A stretch of 64,000 bases of DNA from an uncultured Parabacteroides sp. (GTDB taxonomy: Bacteria > Bacteroidota > Bacteroidia > Bacteroidales > Tannerellaceae). Of the stretch, positions 35,029 through 44,733 are shown piece by piece. Below the pieces are notes generated by a model that was not told the DNA's origin, searched no databases, and saw only the letters and a list, made by a program, of their open reading frames with translations. How positions within the stretch are numbered: position 1 is the stretch's first letter; each line of letters begins with the position of its first letter. The position numbers and the translations under genes are program-made. Location of the stretch: NCBI GenBank assembly GCA_949296075.1, contig CASFNG010000003.1, positions 49,419 through 113,418 of the forward strand, in the 5' to 3' direction.

Positions 35029-36414
35029 ATGGAGGGAAATATCTATCGGGGAGAACTGTTCTTTTTCATCGACTCCCCATTGGCTAAATCAGAGGCGTTT
35101 TACCAACATCATTTGGATGGAGGATTATTTGTAATGAACGGAAAAGTGGTGGAGACCGGCCCTTTTGAGGATATTCACGCCCGTTATCCAGACATCCCCG
35201 TGACCGATTATTCCGGGAAATTGATCCTTCCGGGATTAATCGATACCCATTTACATTATCCCCAGTCCGAGATTATCGGGATGTATGGCAAGCAATTGTT
35301 GGATTGGTTAGACGAATATACCTTTCCTGCCGAGGAAAGTTTCTCTTCCGCGGAATACGCTTTAAGTATCGCCCGCTCTTTCGTGACCGAATTGCTTCGT
35401 AACGGGACAACTTCCTGCGCTGCCTATGCCACGGTTCACCCCGTATCCGTGGATGCTTTGTTCACGGTCGCATCGGAATATGGAATGTGTATGCTGACCG
35501 GGAAGGTGTTGATGGATCGGAACGCTCCGGAGGGTTTGCGAGACTCCTCATTAGAAGGTGAGGCCGATAGCCGGGCCTTGATCGAGGAATGGCACGGCAA
35601 AGGGCGGAATCATTACGTGATCACGCCGCGTTTCGCGATCACCAGCACACCGGAACAATTAGAGCGAGCCGGACGGTTGCACCAAGAATATCCTACGACA
35701 TACATACAAACACATCTCTCCGAGAACCAAGGTGAGATCGAGTCCGTGCGTTCTCTTTTCCCCGATAGCGTGGATTATTTGGAGGTGTATGAGCAAGCCG
35801 GATTATTAACTGACCGGACTATTTTCGGCCACTGCGTCCATTTGACAGAAAGGGCTTACAAGCGTTTGGGTGAGAGTGGGGCTATCATCGCCCATTGCCC
35901 GACCTCGAACCTTTTCCTCGGTAGCGGACTGTTTGATATGCGTAAGGCTAACTCGTACGGACTTCGCACGACCTTGGCGACTGACGTTGGGGCAGGAACC
36001 TCTTTCTCAATGTGGAGGACGATGGGAGAGTCGTACAAGGTGCAACAATTACTCGGGTACTCGCAGACGGCTTTCGAGGCGCTTTATAAATGCACGTTAG
36101 GAGCGGCGTACGCCTTATCCTTGGCGGATCGGATCGGGAGCCTCATGCCCGGGAGGGACGCTGACTTCATCGTCGTGGATGCCGCGGCGACTCCCGTCCA
36201 GCGATTAAGGCGCGATTATTTGAGGGCACGGGGAAAATGGGACATTGAGCATAAGCTGTTCGGGTTGCAAACCTTGGGCGACGACCGGAACACGGTGGCA
36301 ACCTATCTCATGGGTCGGAAAGCCTATGCCTCAGATACGCGCGATCATCAGGAAACAGGTGTGCAACACGACCGTGACCACAATCCACAACCGCTCGGAC
36401 CGCACGGGCGATAA
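35029..36414 (+). CDS. guaD: Guanine deaminase
   Basis: Hydrolyses guanine to xanthine in purine salvage. The 461-residue amidohydrolase has the Zn ligands in GLIDTHLHYPQSE, THLSENQGE and IFGHCVHL, plus ATDVGAGTSFS with the catalytic Asp. HCPTSNLFLGSG is the guanine-deaminase signature. The last residues after VATYLMGRKAYA (about 30) overlap the convergent 4Fe-4S gene by 84 bases and look non-conserved. It starts 12 bases after the CDF transporter. Confidence 0.9.
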   Translation: MEGNIYRGELFFFIDSPLAKSEAFYQHHLDGGLFVMNGKVVETGPFEDIHARYPDIPVTDYSGKLILPGLIDTHLHYPQSEIIGMYGKQLLDWLDEYTFPAEESFSSAEYALSIARSFVTELLRNGTTSCAAYATVHPVSVDALFTVASEYGMCMLTGKVLMDRNAPEGLRDSSLEGEADSRALIEEWHGKGRNHYVITPRFAITSTPEQLERAGRLHQEYPTTYIQTHLSENQGEIESVRSLFPDSVDYLEVYEQAGLLTDRTIFGHCVHLTERAYKRLGESGAIIAHCPTSNLFLGSGLFDMRKANSYGLRTTLATDVGAGTSFSMWRTMGESYKVQQLLGYSQTAFEALYKCTLGAAYALSLADRIGSLMPGRDADFIVVDAAATPVQRLRRDYLRARGKWDIEHKLFGLQTLGDDRNTVATYLMGRKAYASDTRDHQETGVQHDRDHNPQPLGPHGR

Positions 36415-37293
36415 TCCCGGAAAATGATACTCCAATGCCCCATGCTTGCAAGCGGACAGGCAATCCCCGCAATAGGTACACGTATAACCTATCTTTCCCC
36501 GTTCCACATCCTCCTTGTTCAATGCGTCGTATGGGCAGGCTTTCACGCAAGCCATGCAATGACAGCAATTATTCGTGAGCCTTACGCGGAAGGGGGAGAG
36601 GCGTTTCAGGAATGAGACCAGCGTCCCGATGGGGCAAAAGCTACTGCAATGGATCATCTTGCCCAGGCGTTTGGAGAAAAGGATCATGACAAGGATCCCG
36701 ATTACCCCGAACGCGATCCCGAATGCCGTGGCTGTCTGCCCGTCCACCCCGAATACACGTAGCAGGATCGCCGTCGCCACGACCAAGAAAAAGGCGCTAT
36801 ACCGCATCCGCTTATGGTAGGGGAATCGCCCTTTCTCCATCTTGCCCCGGGCTGACCAAGCGTCGAACGCCCCGAAATAGCACAATTGACTGCACCAAGC
36901 CGGGCCGGATAACAGTAATGTGCTGATGAACAGGATCGGCATGAACAGTCCCTCGAAGCGGTAAATAGGGCCGGCCAGCATGATCGCGGGGATCGGCAAG
37001 TGTAACTTTCCCGTCATCAAGAACCGGGGATCGGCGAGAAGCCCCACGAGAAACTGCCCGAAGAAGACGATAGAGAACAGCAGCCACGCCCGCTTTCTCC
37101 ACTTGGGCCGTTCTTTCCGGTCAAGCATCTTATGGCAAAGCAGCCCTCCATACAACATCCCTATCAATACTTGCGCCCATCCCCCGCAAGGGAAAAGTCG
37201 CTCCCCCAGTAACAAAGGCTTATCCGGAACGGCCTGGACGACCGACAACAATCCTCCTATCAGCAAACAGGTCGCTATCACGGATTTTCTCAT
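36331..37293 (-). CDS. Membrane 4Fe-4S protein (NapH/NosR-like)
   Basis: The 320-residue inner-membrane protein has about five transmembrane segments. Two cysteine motifs follow membrane segments (GPAWCSQLCYFGAF and HCSSFCPIGTL), and two ferredoxin-type 4Fe-4S binding sites come near the C-terminus (CCHCMACVKACPYDAL and CTYCGDCLSACKHGAL). This is the layout of NapH/CcoG/NosR-type electron-transfer proteins. The start is the ATG of MRKSVIATCL; TTG at 37299 is in frame. The redox partner is unknown. The 3' end overlaps guaD. Confidence 0.85.
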   Translation of the reverse strand: MRKSVIATCLLIGGLLSVVQAVPDKPLLLGERLFPCGGWAQVLIGMLYGGLLCHKMLDRKERPKWRKRAWLLFSIVFFGQFLVGLLADPRFLMTGKLHLPIPAIMLAGPIYRFEGLFMPILFISTLLLSGPAWCSQLCYFGAFDAWSARGKMEKGRFPYHKRMRYSAFFLVVATAILLRVFGVDGQTATAFGIAFGVIGILVMILFSKRLGKMIHCSSFCPIGTLVSFLKRLSPFRVRLTNNCCHCMACVKACPYDALNKEDVERGKIGYTCTYCGDCLSACKHGALEYHFPGLSPVRSERLWIVVTVVLHTCFLMIARI

Positions 37294-37372
37294 GCTCAAC
37301 TTTTTTTAGATGCTTCCGGGAGTTTCTCCGGAAAGCTGGCGTTCGTTTTATAAAAATCTGCGGATCCTTTTC

Positions 37373-38641
37373 TCACAATACCGGCATCGTGTTCTTGACG
37401 CAGGCGAGGCCGATCAGCCGATCGTACCGGGCTCCCATCGGACGATAGAACACAAAGATACTATACTCGTTCTCCGTCTGGAAGAAATTCCCCTCGATCG
37501 GGGTCGTCTCGCCCCGCGTCTGCCCGTCCGGGACAAAGAGATATTGGTAATTGTAGTGACCTTGCTTCAGCAAGATCGATTTCTCGTATCGGTTGGCTTC
37601 CGGGTTATATCCCATACGGCTTCTCTCATCCAGCACATTGTTGAATAAATCACCGCTTAGGTAGACGTTCCCGCCGGGAATCCAGTCCGCGTCGAGCGTG
37701 AAGTGTACGATGTGGTAATCCGCCTCCGTGTCCGGATCGTCGCAATTGCCGCAGTTGATGTAGAAACGGCCGTCTTGATCCTGGTCATATTGGTAGGAGA
37801 GTGGCGCGCGCGACCGGTCGGCCATGAGCTCCACGTGGTAATAAGGATTATGGAAGGAGATGTTCTCCACCCGCATCCCATTGTACTTATCGCTCAAGAA
37901 CTCCATACGGCGATACTCATTGCCGGCGTCGAAGATCAAGTCGCGGTTGTTCGAGTAGATGATCTCGTCTCTCAAGATGCTCATGGGCTGGATATTGGAG
38001 ACGGCATTGTCCCGGCGGTTGTTCTGATATACCCAGATCCGCAAGTCGGATTGCGGGTACGGGATAGGGAAGTTCTTGTGGTTGATCGCGAAGCTGACCT
38101 GCTGATGCGAGCTGTTCGTGTCGATGTCCGTGTTCCCGCTCACCGTGGCCGCCACGCCCACCTTCTGTTCGAATACGGAGAAGCAGGCGGTGAACACGAT
38201 GTGGGAGGGATCATCCTCATTATAGACCTCCAAGGCATAATTACCCGATACCTTAGGCCGCATATCCTCGTTTGGGAAAAGCAGCCGGTAGTTGGTATAC
38301 TGCACCGTGGTACTCATCGCGTTAGCGAAATCCTCGATCGTACTTCCCTGGAAACCATCCATGTATTCGATCGGGGAAAGGTCGGATTGGGTCCAGTCGG
38401 CGTTGCAATGGATCAGGTTGTAGGCGTATCGGCCGAAACCCGGGTTCAAGGCATCGAAATTGATCTCGATCCGGCTCTCGCTATCCAACCCGATGAAGGG
38501 ATGGGAAAGCGCTTCGCCTGCCACCCGCACCTGGAGCGTCTTTATCTGCTTGTCGCTGATGTTCGTAAAATATGTTTTTTGGGCGCTGAGCGGCATGAGC
38601 CACGTAAATAGAGCGCCGATGAAAAGGCTATAAACTTTCAT
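37373..38641 (-). CDS. DUF5103 protein, type IX secretion plug homologue
   Basis: The 422-residue exported protein opens with a signal peptide (MKVYSLFIGALFTWLMPLSAQ). It matches the DUF5103 family, which includes the Plug protein that closes the SprA translocon of the type IX secretion system in Flavobacterium. Visible features are an N-terminal beta domain with NLIHCNADWTQSDLSPIEYMDGF, a central IINNHxNxxxRP-like turn region (RLLFPNEDMRP), and a C-terminal domain with VYLSGDLFNN and YNYQYLFVPDG. No other T9SS gene is in the window. It runs divergently from nqrA. Confidence 0.82.
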   Translation of the reverse strand: MKVYSLFIGALFTWLMPLSAQKTYFTNISDKQIKTLQVRVAGEALSHPFIGLDSESRIEINFDALNPGFGRYAYNLIHCNADWTQSDLSPIEYMDGFQGSTIEDFANAMSTTVQYTNYRLLFPNEDMRPKVSGNYALEVYNEDDPSHIVFTACFSVFEQKVGVAATVSGNTDIDTNSSHQQVSFAINHKNFPIPYPQSDLRIWVYQNNRRDNAVSNIQPMSILRDEIIYSNNRDLIFDAGNEYRRMEFLSDKYNGMRVENISFHNPYYHVELMADRSRAPLSYQYDQDQDGRFYINCGNCDDPDTEADYHIVHFTLDADWIPGGNVYLSGDLFNNVLDERSRMGYNPEANRYEKSILLKQGHYNYQYLFVPDGQTRGETTPIEGNFFQTENEYSIFVFYRPMGARYDRLIGLACVKNTMPVL

Positions 38642-38772: not shown

Positions 38773-40119
38773 ATGGCAAATGTGATTACGATTAAAAAGG
38801 GTTTAGACATTAATCTGAAGGGCAAGGCTCCGGAAGTGATGCTAAATGGCGGAAAGAGCGCGACTTACGCGATCGTTCCGGACTATTTTGACGGCATCGT
38901 ACCGAAGGTGGTCGTGCGTCCGGGGGATAAGGTCAAAGCTGGTTCCGCGTTGATGATCGACAAGAACCGCCCTGAGATCAAGTTCGTCTCGCCGGTGAGC
39001 GGTGAGGTCTTGGCCGTCAACCGCGGCGAGAAGCGTAAGGTGTTGAGCATCGTGGTGACCCCGGATGCCCAGATCGAGTACGAGGATTTCGGGAAGAAAA
39101 GCGTCTCTTCCCTGAAAGCGGAGGAGGTGAAGGCAGAATTGCTGAATGCCGGCATGTGGCCGTTCATCAAGCAGCGCCCGTACGACATCGTGGCTTCCCC
39201 GTCGGATACCCCGCGCGATATTTTCGTGACGGCGTTTAACTCGGCTCCCTTGGCTCCCGACTTCGATTTCTTGGTGAAGGGTCAGGAGGCTGATTTGCAG
39301 GCAGGTCTCGATGCGTTGTCCAAATTGACGGAAGGAAAGGTCTATGTAGGCGTGAAGAGAGGGTCGGCCGTGAAAGTGAGCGGCGTAGAGGTAGTAGAGT
39401 TCGAGGGACCGCATCCCGCGGGGAACGTGGGCGTGCAGATCAACCACATCAAGCCCGTGAACAAGGGTGAGGTGGTCTGGACCGTGAGCGCCTCTGACGT
39501 CATCTTGATGGGCCGTCTTTTTAATAAAGGTATAGCGGACTTCACCCGCCTGGTGGCCGTTACCGGTTCCGAGGCTACGGAGCGAGGCTACGTGAAGGCG
39601 ATCTCGGGCTGCACGATCGAGAGCATCTTAGGCGGGAAAGTGCTCGACAACGGGCATATCCGCATGATCAGCGGCAACGTGCTGACCGGCACCAAGGTCG
39701 GCATGGATAGCTACTTAGGCGCTTACGATTGCCAGGTGACGGTGATCCCCGAAGGCGACGACGTACATGAGTTCCTTGGTTGGGGCGTACCCGGCTTCGG
39801 AAAATATAGCGTCAGCCACTCTTACCTGACTTGGCTGATCGGCAAGGGCAAGGAGTACGTGATCGATGCCCGTATCAAGGGAGGCAAGCGCGCCATGATC
39901 ATGTCGAACGAGTACGACAAGGTGTTCCCGATGGACATTATGCCCGAATACCTGCTGAAAGCAATCATCGCCTTTGATATTGACAAGATGGAGAACTTAG
40001 GTATCTATGAGGTGGCACCCGAGGATTTCGCCTTGTGCGAGTTCGTGGATACCTCGAAGATCGAGTTGCAGCGTATCGTCCGTGATGGCCTGAACCTGCT
40101 GTATAAGGAAATGAATTAA
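38773..40119 (+). CDS. nqrA: Na+-translocating NADH:quinone reductase subunit A
   Basis: Cytoplasmic-face subunit of Na+-NQR, implicated in quinone binding with NqrB. The 448 residues match the whole NqrA family: ITIKKGLDINLKGKAP at the start, VVRPGDKVKAGSAL, FVSPVSGEVLAVNRGEKRKVLS (lipoyl-like domain), GPHPAGNVGVQINHIKP and GWGVPGFGKYSVSHSYL. First gene of the six-gene operon. Confidence 0.97.
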   Translation: MANVITIKKGLDINLKGKAPEVMLNGGKSATYAIVPDYFDGIVPKVVVRPGDKVKAGSALMIDKNRPEIKFVSPVSGEVLAVNRGEKRKVLSIVVTPDAQIEYEDFGKKSVSSLKAEEVKAELLNAGMWPFIKQRPYDIVASPSDTPRDIFVTAFNSAPLAPDFDFLVKGQEADLQAGLDALSKLTEGKVYVGVKRGSAVKVSGVEVVEFEGPHPAGNVGVQINHIKPVNKGEVVWTVSASDVILMGRLFNKGIADFTRLVAVTGSEATERGYVKAISGCTIESILGGKVLDNGHIRMISGNVLTGTKVGMDSYLGAYDCQVTVIPEGDDVHEFLGWGVPGFGKYSVSHSYLTWLIGKGKEYVIDARIKGGKRAMIMSNEYDKVFPMDIMPEYLLKAIIAFDIDKMENLGIYEVAPEDFALCEFVDTSKIELQRIVRDGLNLLYKEMN

Positions 40120-40141: not shown

Positions 40142-41326
40142 TTGAAAGCGTTAAGGAATTATCTCGACAAGATTAAGCCTAACTTCGAGAAAGGTGGAAA
40201 GCTGGCGATGTTCCGTTCGGTGTTTGATGGGTTCGAGACCTTCTTGTTCGTCCCGAATTCCACGTCAAAGACGGGCGTTCACATTCATGACAGTATCGAC
40301 TCAAAGCGTACGATGATCGTGGTCGTATTGGCTTTGTTGCCGGCTTTGCTTTTTGGTATGTACAATGTCGGTTACCAGCATAATCTGGCCGTTGGCGCGG
40401 ATCCGGGATTCTGGATGACGTTCATTTTCGGCTTCTTGGCCGTATTGCCCAAGATCGTGGTCGCTTATGTGGTAGGTCTGGGTATCGAGTTCGCCGTGGC
40501 CCAATGGAAAGGAGAGGAGATCCAGGAAGGTTTCTTGGTTTCCGGTATCTTGATCCCGATGATCGTCCCCGTGGACACTCCGCTGTGGATGATCGCCGTG
40601 GCTACCGCGTTCGCCGTGATCTTCGCGAAAGAGGTATTCGGTGGAACCGGATACAACGTGTTCAACGTGGCGTTGGTTACGCGCGCGTTCTTGTTCTTCG
40701 CTTACCCGACAGCGATGTCCGGTGACCAGGTATGGGTACGCACGGCTGATACGTTCGGTATCGGTGGCGGACAGGTGGTGGATGGCTTCTCGGCCGCTAC
40801 GCCGCTTGGAATCGCAAAGGTGGCTACGACCACGACTCCCGAGTACCCGTGGAGCTTCTGTGATATGGTGACCGGATTTATCCCCGGCTCGATCGGTGAG
40901 ACAAGCGTGATCGCTATCCTGATTGGTGCGGTGATTTTGCTGGTAACGAACATAGCGAGCTGGAAAACGATGCTCTCCGTATTCGTGGGTGGTGCCTTTA
41001 TGGCTCTCGTATTCAACTTAGTTGGCCCGGATACGGCGACAGCCCAAATGCCTTGGTACATGCACTTGGCTTTAGGAGGGTTCGCCTTTGGAGCCGTGTT
41101 CATGGCGACCGATCCGGTAACTTCCGCCCGTACGGAAAAAGGTAAGTATATTTACGGTTTATTGGTCGGCGCGATGGCCATCATCATCCGAGTGCTGAAC
41201 CCCGGTTATCCCGAGGGTATGATGCTGGCGATCCTGTTGATGAACGTGTTTGCCCCGCTGATCGACTATTATGTGGTGGAGGCGAATATCAATCGTCGTT
41301 TGAACCGTGTTAAACTGAATAAATAA
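40142..41326 (+). CDS. nqrB: Na+-NQR subunit B
   Basis: Main membrane subunit with a covalently linked FMN and the Na+ path. The 394-residue protein has about ten membrane segments. The flavin-attachment Thr is T220 in DGFSAATPLGIAK, matching the S(T)GAT-type motif. Family similarity begins right at MKALRNYLDKIKPNF, so TTG is the start codon; no nearby ATG would keep the conserved N-terminal helix. Confidence 0.95.
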   Translation: MKALRNYLDKIKPNFEKGGKLAMFRSVFDGFETFLFVPNSTSKTGVHIHDSIDSKRTMIVVVLALLPALLFGMYNVGYQHNLAVGADPGFWMTFIFGFLAVLPKIVVAYVVGLGIEFAVAQWKGEEIQEGFLVSGILIPMIVPVDTPLWMIAVATAFAVIFAKEVFGGTGYNVFNVALVTRAFLFFAYPTAMSGDQVWVRTADTFGIGGGQVVDGFSAATPLGIAKVATTTTPEYPWSFCDMVTGFIPGSIGETSVIAILIGAVILLVTNIASWKTMLSVFVGGAFMALVFNLVGPDTATAQMPWYMHLALGGFAFGAVFMATDPVTSARTEKGKYIYGLLVGAMAIIIRVLNPGYPEGMMLAILLMNVFAPLIDYYVVEANINRRLNRVKLNK

Positions 41327-41333
41327 AAGGAAT

Positions 41334-42140
41334 ATGGCTACAAAGAAATTTAAGTGCAAAGTATGTGGCTATGTCCACGAAGGTGATAAAGCGCCGGCGA
41401 ATTGCCCGGTATGCCAAGCTCCGGCATCGGAGTTCGAGGAAATAAAGGAGGAGGGTTCCGCCAAGAAAGGAATCGACCGGAACAGCAATACCTATACGGT
41501 CGTTTACGCCGCTGTCATGGTTCTTCTGGTTGCGGTCGCCTTGGCGTTTACTTCTCAGTCGCTGAAACCTTTCCAGAAACAGAATGAGGACAACGACAAA
41601 CGTCAGCAGATACTCCGTTCCATCAACGTGAACGTACCGGCGAATGAGGCCGAGGCTAAATATAATGAGTTGATTAAGGATGCCTACTTGCTGAACGAGA
41701 ATGGCGAGAAGATCGGTGACGCAGCCGAGGCGTTTGCCGGCGAGAAGGACGGATTCCCCGTCTTCGTGGCAACCGTGGATGGCCAGACCAAATATATCAT
41801 GGCTCTGCATGGTGCCGGTCTGTGGGGACCGCTTTGGGGTTATCTGTCCGTGAATGATGACAAGAATACGGTGTTTGGAGCGGACTTCAGCCATCAGGGT
41901 GAGACCCCGGGTCTGGGTGCGGAAATCTCTAAGCCGGTTTTCAGTCAGCAATTTGCGGGGAAACAGATTTTCAAGGACGGCACGTTCAAGTCTATCGCGA
42001 TCGTGAAGCCCGGTAAATCGGTTGATGGCCAGGATTACGTGGATGGTATCTCCGGAGGTACGATAACCAGTCAAGGTGTTAGCTCCATGATTTTTGACAG
42101 CTTGAAGAGTTATGAGAAATTTTTAACTTCAAATCAGTAA
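41334..42140 (+). CDS. nqrC: Na+-NQR subunit C with N-terminal rubredoxin-like domain
   Basis: FMN-carrying NQR subunit with an unusual extra domain. Residues 4-35 form a rubrerythrin-type rubredoxin site: C8-x2-C11, GYxHEG, twelve residues, then C24-x2-C27 (NCPVC), which would bind one iron. A short acidic linker (about 36-48) leads to the ordinary NqrC transmembrane helix (YTVVYAAVMVLLVAVALAF, about 54-72). The periplasmic FMN domain has flavin Thr T243 in DGISGGTITSQGV. The frame is uninterrupted from the ATG 7 bases after nqrB. The extra domain would face the cytoplasm, on the side of NqrF. Its role is unknown. Confidence 0.95.
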   Translation: MATKKFKCKVCGYVHEGDKAPANCPVCQAPASEFEEIKEEGSAKKGIDRNSNTYTVVYAAVMVLLVAVALAFTSQSLKPFQKQNEDNDKRQQILRSINVNVPANEAEAKYNELIKDAYLLNENGEKIGDAAEAFAGEKDGFPVFVATVDGQTKYIMALHGAGLWGPLWGYLSVNDDKNTVFGADFSHQGETPGLGAEISKPVFSQQFAGKQIFKDGTFKSIAIVKPGKSVDGQDYVDGISGGTITSQGVSSMIFDSLKSYEKFLTSNQ

Positions 42141-42144
42141 GAAA

Positions 42145-42774
42145 ATGGGATTATTATCTAAGAAAAATAAAGAGATATTGGTTGGCCCGCTGAACGTCAA
42201 CAACCCGGTTATTATCCAGATGCTGGGTATCTGTTCCGCGTTGGGTGTCACATCCAAGCTGGAGCCGGCCTTGGTTATGGGTATTTCCGTGACAGCCGTT
42301 GTCGCTTTCGCCAACGTGATCATTTCATTGCTGCGTAATACGATCCCTAACCGTATCCGTATTATCGTGCAGTTGGTGGTCGTGGCAGCCTTGGTTACAA
42401 TCGCCAGCGAGGTCTTGAAGGCGTTCGCGTACGATGTCAACAAGCAACTGTCGGTGTTCGTGGGCTTGATTATCACGAACTGTATCCTGATGGGTCGCTT
42501 GGAGGCCTTCGCGTTAGGTAACGGCCCGTGGGAATCGTTCCTCGACGGTATCGGAAACGGGCTTGGTTACGCGATCATCTTGGTGATCGTCGGTTTCTTC
42601 CGCGAGTTGTTTGGATCCGGGACCTTGTTCGGTATCCAGATCATCCCGCAAGCCTTCTACGATTTTGGCTATGTAAACAACGGCTTGGTGATCTTGCCTC
42701 CGATGGCGTTGTTCGTTATCGCGGTGATTATTTGGGTTCATCGTTCTCGCAACAAGGAACTCCAGGAAAACTAA
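42145..42774 (+). CDS. nqrD: Na+-NQR subunit D
   Basis: Integral membrane subunit of six helices, 209 residues. Together with NqrE it holds an iron centre in the membrane; the expected Cys are C30 (QMLGICSALG) and C113 (IITNCILMGRLEAF). It starts four bases after nqrC. Confidence 0.96.
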   Translation: MGLLSKKNKEILVGPLNVNNPVIIQMLGICSALGVTSKLEPALVMGISVTAVVAFANVIISLLRNTIPNRIRIIVQLVVVAALVTIASEVLKAFAYDVNKQLSVFVGLIITNCILMGRLEAFALGNGPWESFLDGIGNGLGYAIILVIVGFFRELFGSGTLFGIQIIPQAFYDFGYVNNGLVILPPMALFVIAVIIWVHRSRNKELQEN

Positions 42775-42798: not shown

Positions 42799-43416
42799 AT
42801 GGAAGAATTATTAAGTACGTTTGTCCGCTCTATCTTTGTTGACAACATGATTTTCGCATACTATTTAGGTATGTGCTCTTTCCTGGCTGTTTCAAAGAAC
42901 GTAAAGACGGCGATGGGTCTGGGTCTTGCGGTGACATTCATCTTGGTTTGCACGCTGCCCATCAACTATATGCTTGAGAATTATGTATTGAAGGAGGGGG
43001 CTCTCTCTTGGTTGGGGCCGCAATTCGCGGACGTGAACCTGAGTTTCTTGGCATTCATCCTGTTTATCGCCATCATCGCCTCGTTCACGCAGTTGGTTGA
43101 GATGGTCGTGGAGAAATTCGCCCCGTCGTTGTATGCCTCTTTGGGTATCTTCTTGCCCTTGATCGCCGTTAACTGCGCCATCCTGGGAGGTTCCTTGTTC
43201 ATGCAGCAGAAGGACTTCTCCAACGTGGGAGTGGCTACGGTCTATGGTCTTGGCTCCGGTCTCGGCTGGATGTTGGCGATCGTCGGAATGGCGGCTATTC
43301 GCGAGAAGCTGGCTTACTCGGACGTTCCTAAGCCTTTGAAGGGTCTGGGTATCACGTTCATCATCACGGGTCTGATGGGTATGGCCTTCATGTGCTTCTC
43401 TGGTTTGAAGATTTAA
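42799..43416 (+). CDS. nqrE: Na+-NQR subunit E
   Basis: Membrane subunit homologous to NqrD, 205 residues and six helices. The Cys pair for the shared iron centre is C26 (YYLGMCSFLAVSK) and C126 (AVNCAILGG). It matches the family from start to end (PLKGLGITFIITGLMGMAFM). Confidence 0.96.
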   Translation: MEELLSTFVRSIFVDNMIFAYYLGMCSFLAVSKNVKTAMGLGLAVTFILVCTLPINYMLENYVLKEGALSWLGPQFADVNLSFLAFILFIAIIASFTQLVEMVVEKFAPSLYASLGIFLPLIAVNCAILGGSLFMQQKDFSNVGVATVYGLGSGLGWMLAIVGMAAIREKLAYSDVPKPLKGLGITFIITGLMGMAFMCFSGLKI

Positions 43417-43446: not shown

Positions 43447-44733
43447 ATGACTTTATTAATGTCGGGCGGACTTACGATCATCGCCAGTGCCGTTGTATTC
43501 CTTGTCGTTACGATGATACTGGTTGGTGCGTTGTTGTACGCCAAAGCAAAATTGGTTCCGTCAGGCAACGTGAAACTGACGGTGAACGGAGAGAGAGAGA
43601 TTGAGACTCCGATGGGAGGCACGTTGCTGGGCGCCTTGCAGAGTGGAGGCGTTTTCCTGTCGTCGGCTTGTGGCGGTGGCGGTAAATGTGGCCAATGCCG
43701 TGCGCAAGTGATGGAGGGTGGCGGTGAGATCCTGCCCACCGAGAAGGTATTCTTCTCTCGCAAGCAACAGAAAGATCACTGGCGTCTGGCTTGCCAAACG
43801 AAGGTGAAAGAGGATATGCAGGTGAAAGTGCCGGAAGAGGTGCTGGGCGTAAAGGAATGGGAGTGCGAGGTCATCTCCAACAAGAACGTGGCTACCTTCA
43901 TCAAGGAGTTTATCGTGCAGCTGCCTAAGGGCGAGCATATGGACTTCATCCCGGGCTCGTACGCTCAGATCAAGATCCCCAAGTTCTCTATGGATTATGA
44001 CAAGGACATCGATAAGAGCCTGATCGGCGACACTTATCTGCCGGCATGGGAGAAATTCGGCCTGTTCGGGTTGAAATGTAAGAACGACGAGCCTACGATC
44101 CGTGCCTATTCAATGGCCAACTATCCTGCCGAGGGAGATCGTTTCATGCTGACCGTGCGTATCGCCACGCCGCCGTTCAAGCCGAAACCCCAGGTAGGCT
44201 TCATGGACGTGATGCCGGGTATCGCCTCCTCGTATATCTTCACGCTGAAACCGGGTGATAAGGTGACGATGAGCGGTCCTTACGGTGATTTCCACCCGAT
44301 CTTCGACTCTAAGCGCGAGATGATGTGGATCGGTGGTGGTGCCGGTATGGCTCCGCTGCGTGCCCAGATCATGCACATGACGAAGACGCTGCATACGACG
44401 GATCGCAAGATGTCGTACTTCTATGGCGCCCGTGCGTTGAACGAGGTATTCTACCTGCAAGACTTCCTGCAATTGGAGAAGGAATTCCCGAACTTCACGT
44501 TCCATCTGGCGCTCGACCGCCCGGATCCCGCTGCCGACGCGGCAGGCGTGAAATATACGGCCGGCTTCGTTCATCAGGTGATTTACAACACGTACCTGAA
44601 GGATCACGAGGCTCCGGAGGATATTGAGTACTATATGTGTGGTCCCGGACCGATGTCGAAAGCAGTCGAAGGTATGCTTGACAGCTTAGGCGTCCCGATG
44701 GAGATGTTACACTACGATAATTTCGGCGGTTAA
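43447..44733 (+). CDS. nqrF: Na+-NQR subunit F, NADH-oxidising
   Basis: Entry point of the complex, taking electrons from NADH. The 428-residue protein has one N-terminal membrane anchor (about 8-32). A [2Fe-2S] ferredoxin domain follows with C75, C81, C84 and C116 (SSACGGGGKCGQC and RLACQTK). Then come the FAD site RAYSMANYP, the NADH site GGGAGMAPLRAQI and a C-terminal MCGPGPM with LDSLGVPMEMLHYDNFGG. Last gene, followed by a strong terminator. Confidence 0.97.
   Translation: MTLLMSGGLTIIASAVVFLVVTMILVGALLYAKAKLVPSGNVKLTVNGEREIETPMGGTLLGALQSGGVFLSSACGGGGKCGQCRAQVMEGGGEILPTEKVFFSRKQQKDHWRLACQTKVKEDMQVKVPEEVLGVKEWECEVISNKNVATFIKEFIVQLPKGEHMDFIPGSYAQIKIPKFSMDYDKDIDKSLIGDTYLPAWEKFGLFGLKCKNDEPTIRAYSMANYPAEGDRFMLTVRIATPPFKPKPQVGFMDVMPGIASSYIFTLKPGDKVTMSGPYGDFHPIFDSKREMMWIGGGAGMAPLRAQIMHMTKTLHTTDRKMSYFYGARALNEVFYLQDFLQLEKEFPNFTFHLALDRPDPAADAAGVKYTAGFVHQVIYNTYLKDHEAPEDIEYYMCGPGPMSKAVEGMLDSLGVPMEMLHYDNFGG

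Follow-up and report, generated by a model that had tools for sequence, protein, structure and literature searches.

The window, meaning the whole stretch of 64,000 nucleotides of Parabacteroides DNA analysed here, carries a tight nqrABCDEF operon with intergenic gaps of 4 to 30 bases, in which nqrC is the third gene (Table 1). The cluster ligands of NqrD, NqrE and NqrF were assigned by position with respect to the V. cholerae and P. bryantii residue numbers in the accessible text of PMC10739449. With these cysteines in place and flavinylation motifs in both NqrB and NqrC, the core of the pump is complete as judged from its residues, and the rubredoxin domain at the N-terminus of NqrC is an addition to it. 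Directly upstream of nqrA and divergent from it, positions 37373-38641 (-) encode a type 9 secretion plug-domain protein. Also near the operon, positions 36331-37299 (-) encode a membrane-type protein with Fer4_5 and further 4Fe-4S motifs, a possible extra electron-transfer protein. Among the five nqr neighbours scanned, no gene for a soluble electron donor was obvious, the upstream 4Fe-4S protein being of the membrane type.

Table 1. Positions in the window of the nqr genes and of the parts of the fused NqrC protein, with the basis of each assignment
Feature	Positions	Strand	Basis
nqrA	38773..40119	+	NCBIfam
nqrB, DGFSAAT motif at residue 214	40142..41326	+	NCBIfam, motif
nqrC with N-terminal rubredoxin domain, 268 amino acids	41334..42140	+	Open reading frame, Pfam and TIGR01938
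Short (rubrerythrin-type) rubredoxin domain, residues 1-39	41334..41450	+	RUBY_RBDX 6-35; model pLDDT 81-93 per ten-residue block, residues 1-40
First metal knuckle C8-x2-C11 (putative)	41355..41366; codons 41355-41357, 41364-41366	+	Sequence
Second metal knuckle C24-x2-C27 (putative)	41403..41414; codons 41403-41405, 41412-41414	+	Sequence
Flexible linker, residues 40-51, length variable among relatives	41451..41486	+	Residues 40-46 with pLDDT <50
Single membrane helix, residues 52-76	41487..41561	+	Hydropathy peak 55-73; helix 52-96 in model
FMN_bind domain, residues 162-257, DGISGGT flavinylation motif (T243)	41817..42104	+	Pfam and motif
nqrD, Cys30 and Cys113	42145..42774	+	NCBIfam, cysteines
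nqrE, Cys26 and Cys126 (among others)	42799..43416	+	NCBIfam, cysteines
nqrF, NADH/FAD and 2Fe-2S subunit, Cys75/81/84/116 (among others)	43447..44733	+	Pfam, NCBIfam, cysteines

The nqrC frame opens with an ATG, and its product scored 202.2 bits against the nqrC family TIGR01938 (cut-off 144). It has one N-terminal membrane helix and an FMN_bind domain (E 9.8e-16 in hmmscan against Pfam, above the cut-off) with the motif D-x2-[ST]-G-[AG]-T, from which covalent binding of FMN is predicted. Ahead of the helix, RUBY_RBDX (PF21349) was matched with an E-value of 2.1e-14 and 53.1 bits, compared to a gathering cut-off of 26.5. The only cysteines of the protein, at positions 8, 11, 24 and 27, form the pattern C8-x2-C11-x12-C24-x2-C27. 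A sequence-only reading of this DNA had described rubrerythrin-type C-x2-C pairs in frame with a normal NqrC, and the agreement of Pfam, TIGR01938 and cysteine positions bears this out. In phmmer searches residues 4-36 matched the rubrerythrins 1ryt and 1b71 (E about 8e-6), and approximately residues 5-40 matched rubredoxins (best E 8e-5). The profile for classical rubredoxin, PF00301, reached only 10.9 bits with a cut-off of 23, Zn_ribbon_8 reached 12.5 bits (cut-off 34.4), and a diiron domain was absent from the chain in that neither Rubrerythrin nor Ferritin matched up to an E-value of 1. A CCP_MauG match of 22.7 bits (cut-off 25.6) and other extra Pfam matches, likewise below their cut-offs, were set aside. 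A chance arrangement of cysteines was rejected, as CxxC-x12-CxxC occurred in none of 200,000 random 40-mers with the composition of NqrC and RUBY_RBDX matched above its cut-off. By these sequence comparisons the N-terminus is confirmed as a short (rubrerythrin-type) rubredoxin fused to an otherwise normal NqrC.

The structure predicted for NqrC from 49 aligned sequences had a mean pLDDT of 87.3. It comprises a confident N-terminal domain with strands at residues 4-8, 14-17 and 34-37, a linker with pLDDT below 50 at residues 40-46, and a helix that starts at residue 52. The domain limits of 4-35 given in the sequence-only reading were about right, but the predicted fold extends to approximately residues 37-39. 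In Foldseek the best matches of the model were NqrC structures, namely 3lwx (E 5e-27) and V. cholerae chains (E about 1e-12). Later matches comprised the rubredoxin part of 4tpu, with 0.7 A over 37 columns (E 0.02, probability 1.00), and the rubredoxin parts of the rubrerythrins 1b71, 1ryt and 9fj2 (E 0.04-0.3, probability 1.00). The N-terminal domain of NqrC is thus predicted to adopt the rubredoxin fold. The first codon is the sole in-frame ATG, GTG or TTG before residue 62, and this residue already lies inside the membrane helix, so the membrane anchor cannot be made without the rubredoxin domain. A frame error or an artefact of gene calling is ruled out by the absence of another start codon together with the conservation of the fusion across genera.

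A survey of homologues, as suggested in the sequence-only reading, showed that the fusion recurs in several Bacteroidales genera and in many MAGs. Within the genus (35 genomes, own included), 29 of the 34 genomes with NqrC carry the fused and five the unfused form; the genome G007 gave rubrerythrin-level matches only. In the own family, where 118 genomes were searched and 100 gave a match, start positions indicate a fused NqrC in 32. The corresponding figure is at least 69 of 220 in the family of Paraprevotella xylaniphila, G426 (251 searched). On the level of the order 318 of 393 genomes gave a match, with eight fused proteins from three family codes among the matches listed. A draw of 395 Bacteroidota genomes yielded 26 with a listed match to the N-terminal profile at E <= 1e-12; a listed match spanning domain and helix was confined to two of them, members of the own genus. 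Related genomes retain unfused NqrC as well.

From a scan of the whole collection, the best 80 of 385 relatives were compiled as a set of named loci. Both cysteine pairs occur in NqrC of 80/80 members of this set, in which conservation is biased because its members were selected by N-terminal alignment and by patterns containing the first pair of cysteines, and all six nqr genes lie on 74 of the 80 contigs. Members from Parabacteroides are P. distasonis, P. chinchillae, P. faecalis, P. acidifaciens, P. massiliensis and P. bouchesdurhonensis. Other sources are records of Paraprevotella, Segatella, Prevotella and Phocaeicola, MAGs of Tannerella and Paludibacter and many Bacteroidales MAGs without a genus; one record labelled Clostridium is probably a mislabelled MAG. 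At one locus (L220; G528:C18:14400-16600) a frame of 385 residues harbors three tandem short rubredoxins ahead of the helix, the first two of which are nearly identical. Protein databases probably list the rubredoxin and NqrC domains together.

Purifying selection acts on the rubredoxin domain with no less strength than on the FMN domain. In 81 fused proteins, a selection-biased set, the rubredoxin columns were the most conserved (mean top frequency 0.885, compared to 0.74 for the helix and 0.645 for the FMN domain), and the segment equivalent to residues 37-49 varied between 9 and 21 residues in length. Values of pN/pS were 0.029 for the rubredoxin domain and 0.066 for the FMN domain in six Parabacteroides pairs, and 0.086 and 0.185 in 148 other pairs; these are uncorrected proportions from non-independent pairs, and synonymous change is also lower in the rubredoxin domain. 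The gap between the cysteine pairs is 12 residues in all 77 fused proteins of a wider set, where the definition of fused as two CxxC pairs 8-16 apart makes gap length, and not the presence of cysteines, the tested property. Tyr13 is kept in 68 of these 77 proteins, and the other nine have a diverged domain. Such a domain, with the pattern CSQCGQ...CPIC, is found at L153, L154, L155, L156 and L159, where the cysteines are kept and Tyr13 and His15 are lost; its metal or function may differ.

None of the 77 unfused NqrC proteins has two cysteines ahead of the helix, and no cysteine-less version of the domain was seen among them. The majority (66/77) start with Met-Asn-x-x-[SG]-Asn. As this start aligns just past the linker of the fused forms, an old NqrC start seems to have been extended upstream by the rubredoxin domain. 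In a quick NqrC tree of 132 rows, calculated with the N-terminal columns left out, the fusion label needs 14 changes, at least nine of which are forced by well-supported branches; this tree cannot separate gain from loss. In some unfused proteins (for example L053, L190, L172, L201 and L193) the first residues resemble remains of a linker, which suggests that these starts are scars of past domain loss.

The fusion evolves together with reverse rubrerythrin, in which the rubredoxin domain precedes the diiron domain, and not with free rubredoxin. This was assessed in a balanced selection of 154 genomes from the listed matches, 77 with fused and 77 with unfused NqrC, using the reverse rubrerythrin of the own genome (L001) as query with a threshold of E <= 1e-15; a partial match of 46 residues in G437 was scored as lacking. 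Reverse rubrerythrin was present in 73/77 fused but only 39/77 unfused genomes (Fisher 3.5e-10, uncorrected for descent). A Pagel-type comparison on the NqrC tree of the 154 genomes favoured dependent evolution (LR 24.1, 4 df, p 7.5e-5), and none of 400 simulations of the rubrerythrin trait attained the observed correlation, with the reservation that the NqrC tree substitutes for a species tree and that few events can drive tests of this type. The result persisted after removal of the own genus (122 genomes; LR 20.9, p 3.3e-4; 1/300 simulations) and after removal of 18 genomes listed as less than 90% complete (136 left; p 2e-4; completeness figures are absent for the G426 family). In the first 80 genomes alone, dependence on reverse rubrerythrin had a p-value of 0.0073, whereas classical (free) rubredoxin as a control trait gave 0.58. 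An independent-pairs test with few informative pairs pointed in the right direction but was non-significant (nine pairs, on average 2.8 the same way versus 0.1 opposite). Among these first 80 genomes the contrast was 20/20 fused versus 6/20 unfused in the own family, and weak in the family of Paraprevotella (19/20 versus 15/20, raw p 0.18). Rubrerythrin, which the sequence-only reading had named as a possible partner, has gained support by this co-evolution.

Classical rubredoxin was found in 22/40 fused and 27/40 unfused genomes, which does not support a replacement of free rubredoxin by the fused domain. In the own genus free rubredoxin was missing in 14/17 fused and in 3/3 unfused genomes tested, so that the fused domain does not just stand in for it. 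A flavodiiron-type protein (PF19583) was matched in 79 of the first 80 genomes at E <= 0.001, with weak best matches in G435, G507 and G438 and none in G726; being nearly universal, it does not discriminate between fused and unfused genomes. The own genome encodes a reverse rubrerythrin, a classical rubredoxin and a flavodiiron-type protein. The module of its NqrC shares 61% identity over 31 positions with the rubredoxin of its own reverse rubrerythrin, while the modules of 76 other genomes share a median of 81% identity with it. As 62 of the 76 exceed 61% and are closer than the own reverse rubrerythrin, an origin of the modules by recurrent copying of the resident enzyme's rubredoxin is disfavoured on the sequence data. 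Two further arrangements were noticed: a 67-residue frame with a short rubredoxin, which immediately precedes the rubredoxin of a reverse rubrerythrin (G075/G433, C7:72322-72598), and a 241-residue frame on the reverse strand (L221, G458:C23) that resembles a rubrerythrin with a rubredoxin motif at both ends.

The NqrC of V. cholerae lies in the periplasm, anchored by one helix, and touches TMH1 of NqrF and TMH3 of NqrD, according to the available part of PMC9325719. An addition at its N-terminus should thus be positioned in the cytoplasm beside NqrF, and the placement at the cytoplasmic face near NqrF in the sequence-only reading is what this topology and these contacts lead one to expect. 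The linker would tether the domain to the cytoplasmic end of the anchor helix; its variable length is easier to reconcile with a tether than with a rigid wire. We propose, at somewhat less than an even chance, that the domain is a genuine, selected rubredoxin on a flexible tether that most likely holds one iron (iron being preferred to zinc) and acts as a one-electron carrier from NqrF to reverse rubrerythrin in the first place, and to other peroxide and oxygen reductases. Electrons derived from NADH would pass from NqrF to the rubredoxin domain, which would hand them to these rubredoxin-using enzymes, and the pump would double as a membrane-anchored NADH:rubredoxin reductase. With NADH as electron source and with a reductase plus a short rubredoxin domain from E. 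coli, the reverse rubrerythrins of C. difficile reduce both H2O2 and O2 (accessible text of PMC7482061); by analogy this relay is chemically the same as the one proposed here. A B. thetaiotaomicron preprint of 2026 positions rubredoxin ahead of Oxe, and perhaps ahead of rubrerythrins too; its available part names no reductase for rubredoxin (PMC13252398). Against this partnership, reverse rubrerythrin is lacking in 4/77 fused genomes, and its presence in 39/77 unfused genomes means that the enzyme can be reduced otherwise. The association could also have a common cause in oxygen exposure, or reflect derivation of the module from reverse rubrerythrin.

Several other roles were weighed against the proposed carrier. 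The rubredoxin might bridge the 2Fe-2S cluster of NqrF and the cluster of NqrD/E as a relay within the normal pumping path. In V. cholerae, NqrF shows high mobility and a long distance separates its cluster from that of NqrD/E, and the contacts of the NqrC helix described above would suit such a bridge (PMC9325719, available part). However, the V. cholerae pump works without the domain, the P. bryantii NqrC of 210 amino acids has no room for it (accessible text of PMC6560451), and many Bacteroidales keep an unfused NqrC. A variable linker also fits poorly with a fixed internal step. Rubredoxin potentials are near 0 mV or higher and that of NqrF is about -270 mV. With such potentials a step through rubredoxin would waste driving force, and we regard an internal relay as rather improbable. 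The same potentials would make rubredoxin a poor donor to the NqrD/E cluster, which counts against an electron inlet from a cytosolic donor through rubredoxin to the pump and menaquinone. The expected geometry permits such an inlet, but the scanned neighbours, apart from the membrane-type 4Fe-4S protein, offer no obvious donor, and this direction of flow is very unlikely.

The place beside NqrF and the association with a peroxide-handling gene would also agree with a sensor or safety valve, in which O2 or peroxide would oxidise the rubredoxin iron and thereby slow NqrF or drain its flavin, so limiting reactive oxygen. No signalling feature is present, however, and the three tandem copies suit carriage or storage of electrons better, which makes a sensor unlikely. 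A docking or structural module, whose metal (iron or zinc) serves the fold only and which brings reverse rubrerythrin or another partner to the membrane or makes the complex more rigid, is an equally unlikely alternative. Its resemblance to the module of the own reverse rubrerythrin and the diverged forms that retain the cysteines but lose Tyr13 speak for it, whereas the domain scores as a rubrerythrin-type rubredoxin and not as Zn_ribbon_8. Its patchy presence, with the many changes forced on the tree and the starts that resemble scars of loss, might be expected of a neutral passenger retained by descent, but purifying selection and correlated evolution leave this with very little probability.

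More tentatively than the carrier role itself, the NQR of many Bacteroidales may be a dual-output enzyme that combines reduction of menaquinone with an NADH:rubredoxin reductase activity powering reverse rubrerythrin and other oxygen and peroxide reductases. Respiration and oxygen defence would then share an entry point, and the port of one genome would have been widened to three tandem rubredoxins. A widespread Bacteroidales form of NQR seems to carry an unexamined metal site, since the complete V. cholerae NQR structures matched here are without the domain and the P. bryantii NqrC lacks room for it. If the domain does feed reverse rubrerythrin, this would hint at how such enzymes receive their electrons in Bacteroidales, and the pump may have a second role as a supplier of electrons for oxygen defence. 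No description of a rubredoxin-NqrC fusion was found in the openly licensed literature as represented by titles and abstract openings. The accessible parts of two papers on the P. bryantii NQR (PMC6560451, PMC10739449) and of a flavinylation paper (PMC11334425) do not mention rubredoxin, and the available text of a paper on B. fragilis respiration (PMC7002350) contains no word beginning with rubr.

Among the closest known systems is the Na+-NQR of V. cholerae, whose NqrC shares the membrane helix, the periplasmic FMN domain and the flavinylation motif, in a pump with the same cluster cysteines in NqrD, NqrE and NqrF. It differs in having no N-terminal rubredoxin, as the sequence-only reading had stated: residue 11 of chain 7xk3_C aligns to residue 53 of the protein described here. 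The periplasmic domain of P. distasonis NqrC (3lwx) is 75% identical to that of the present protein, but its chain starts near the end of the helix and cannot show a rubredoxin domain; in another P. distasonis record (L071) an NqrC 94% identical to 3lwx over 197 residues carries it. Reverse rubrerythrin shares the N-terminal short rubredoxin with a gap of 12 residues, whereas NqrC is without the diiron domain. With NADH:rubredoxin oxidoreductase (NROR) only the proposed function is shared, i.e. transfer of NADH electrons through a short rubredoxin to peroxide and O2 reductases. FdpF of C. difficile combines flavodiiron, short rubredoxin and NROR-like domains in one protein, according to the available text of PMC7482061. 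In contrast to both, the NqrC chain has no NROR domain, and the flavoprotein proposed here would be NqrF. RseC of the SoxR-reducing Rsx system, a system of the Rnf type, likewise has a cytoplasmic four-cysteine domain on membrane helices, but in the accessible part of PMC11729352 it is a separate protein with another cysteine pattern and a role in the reduction of SoxR.
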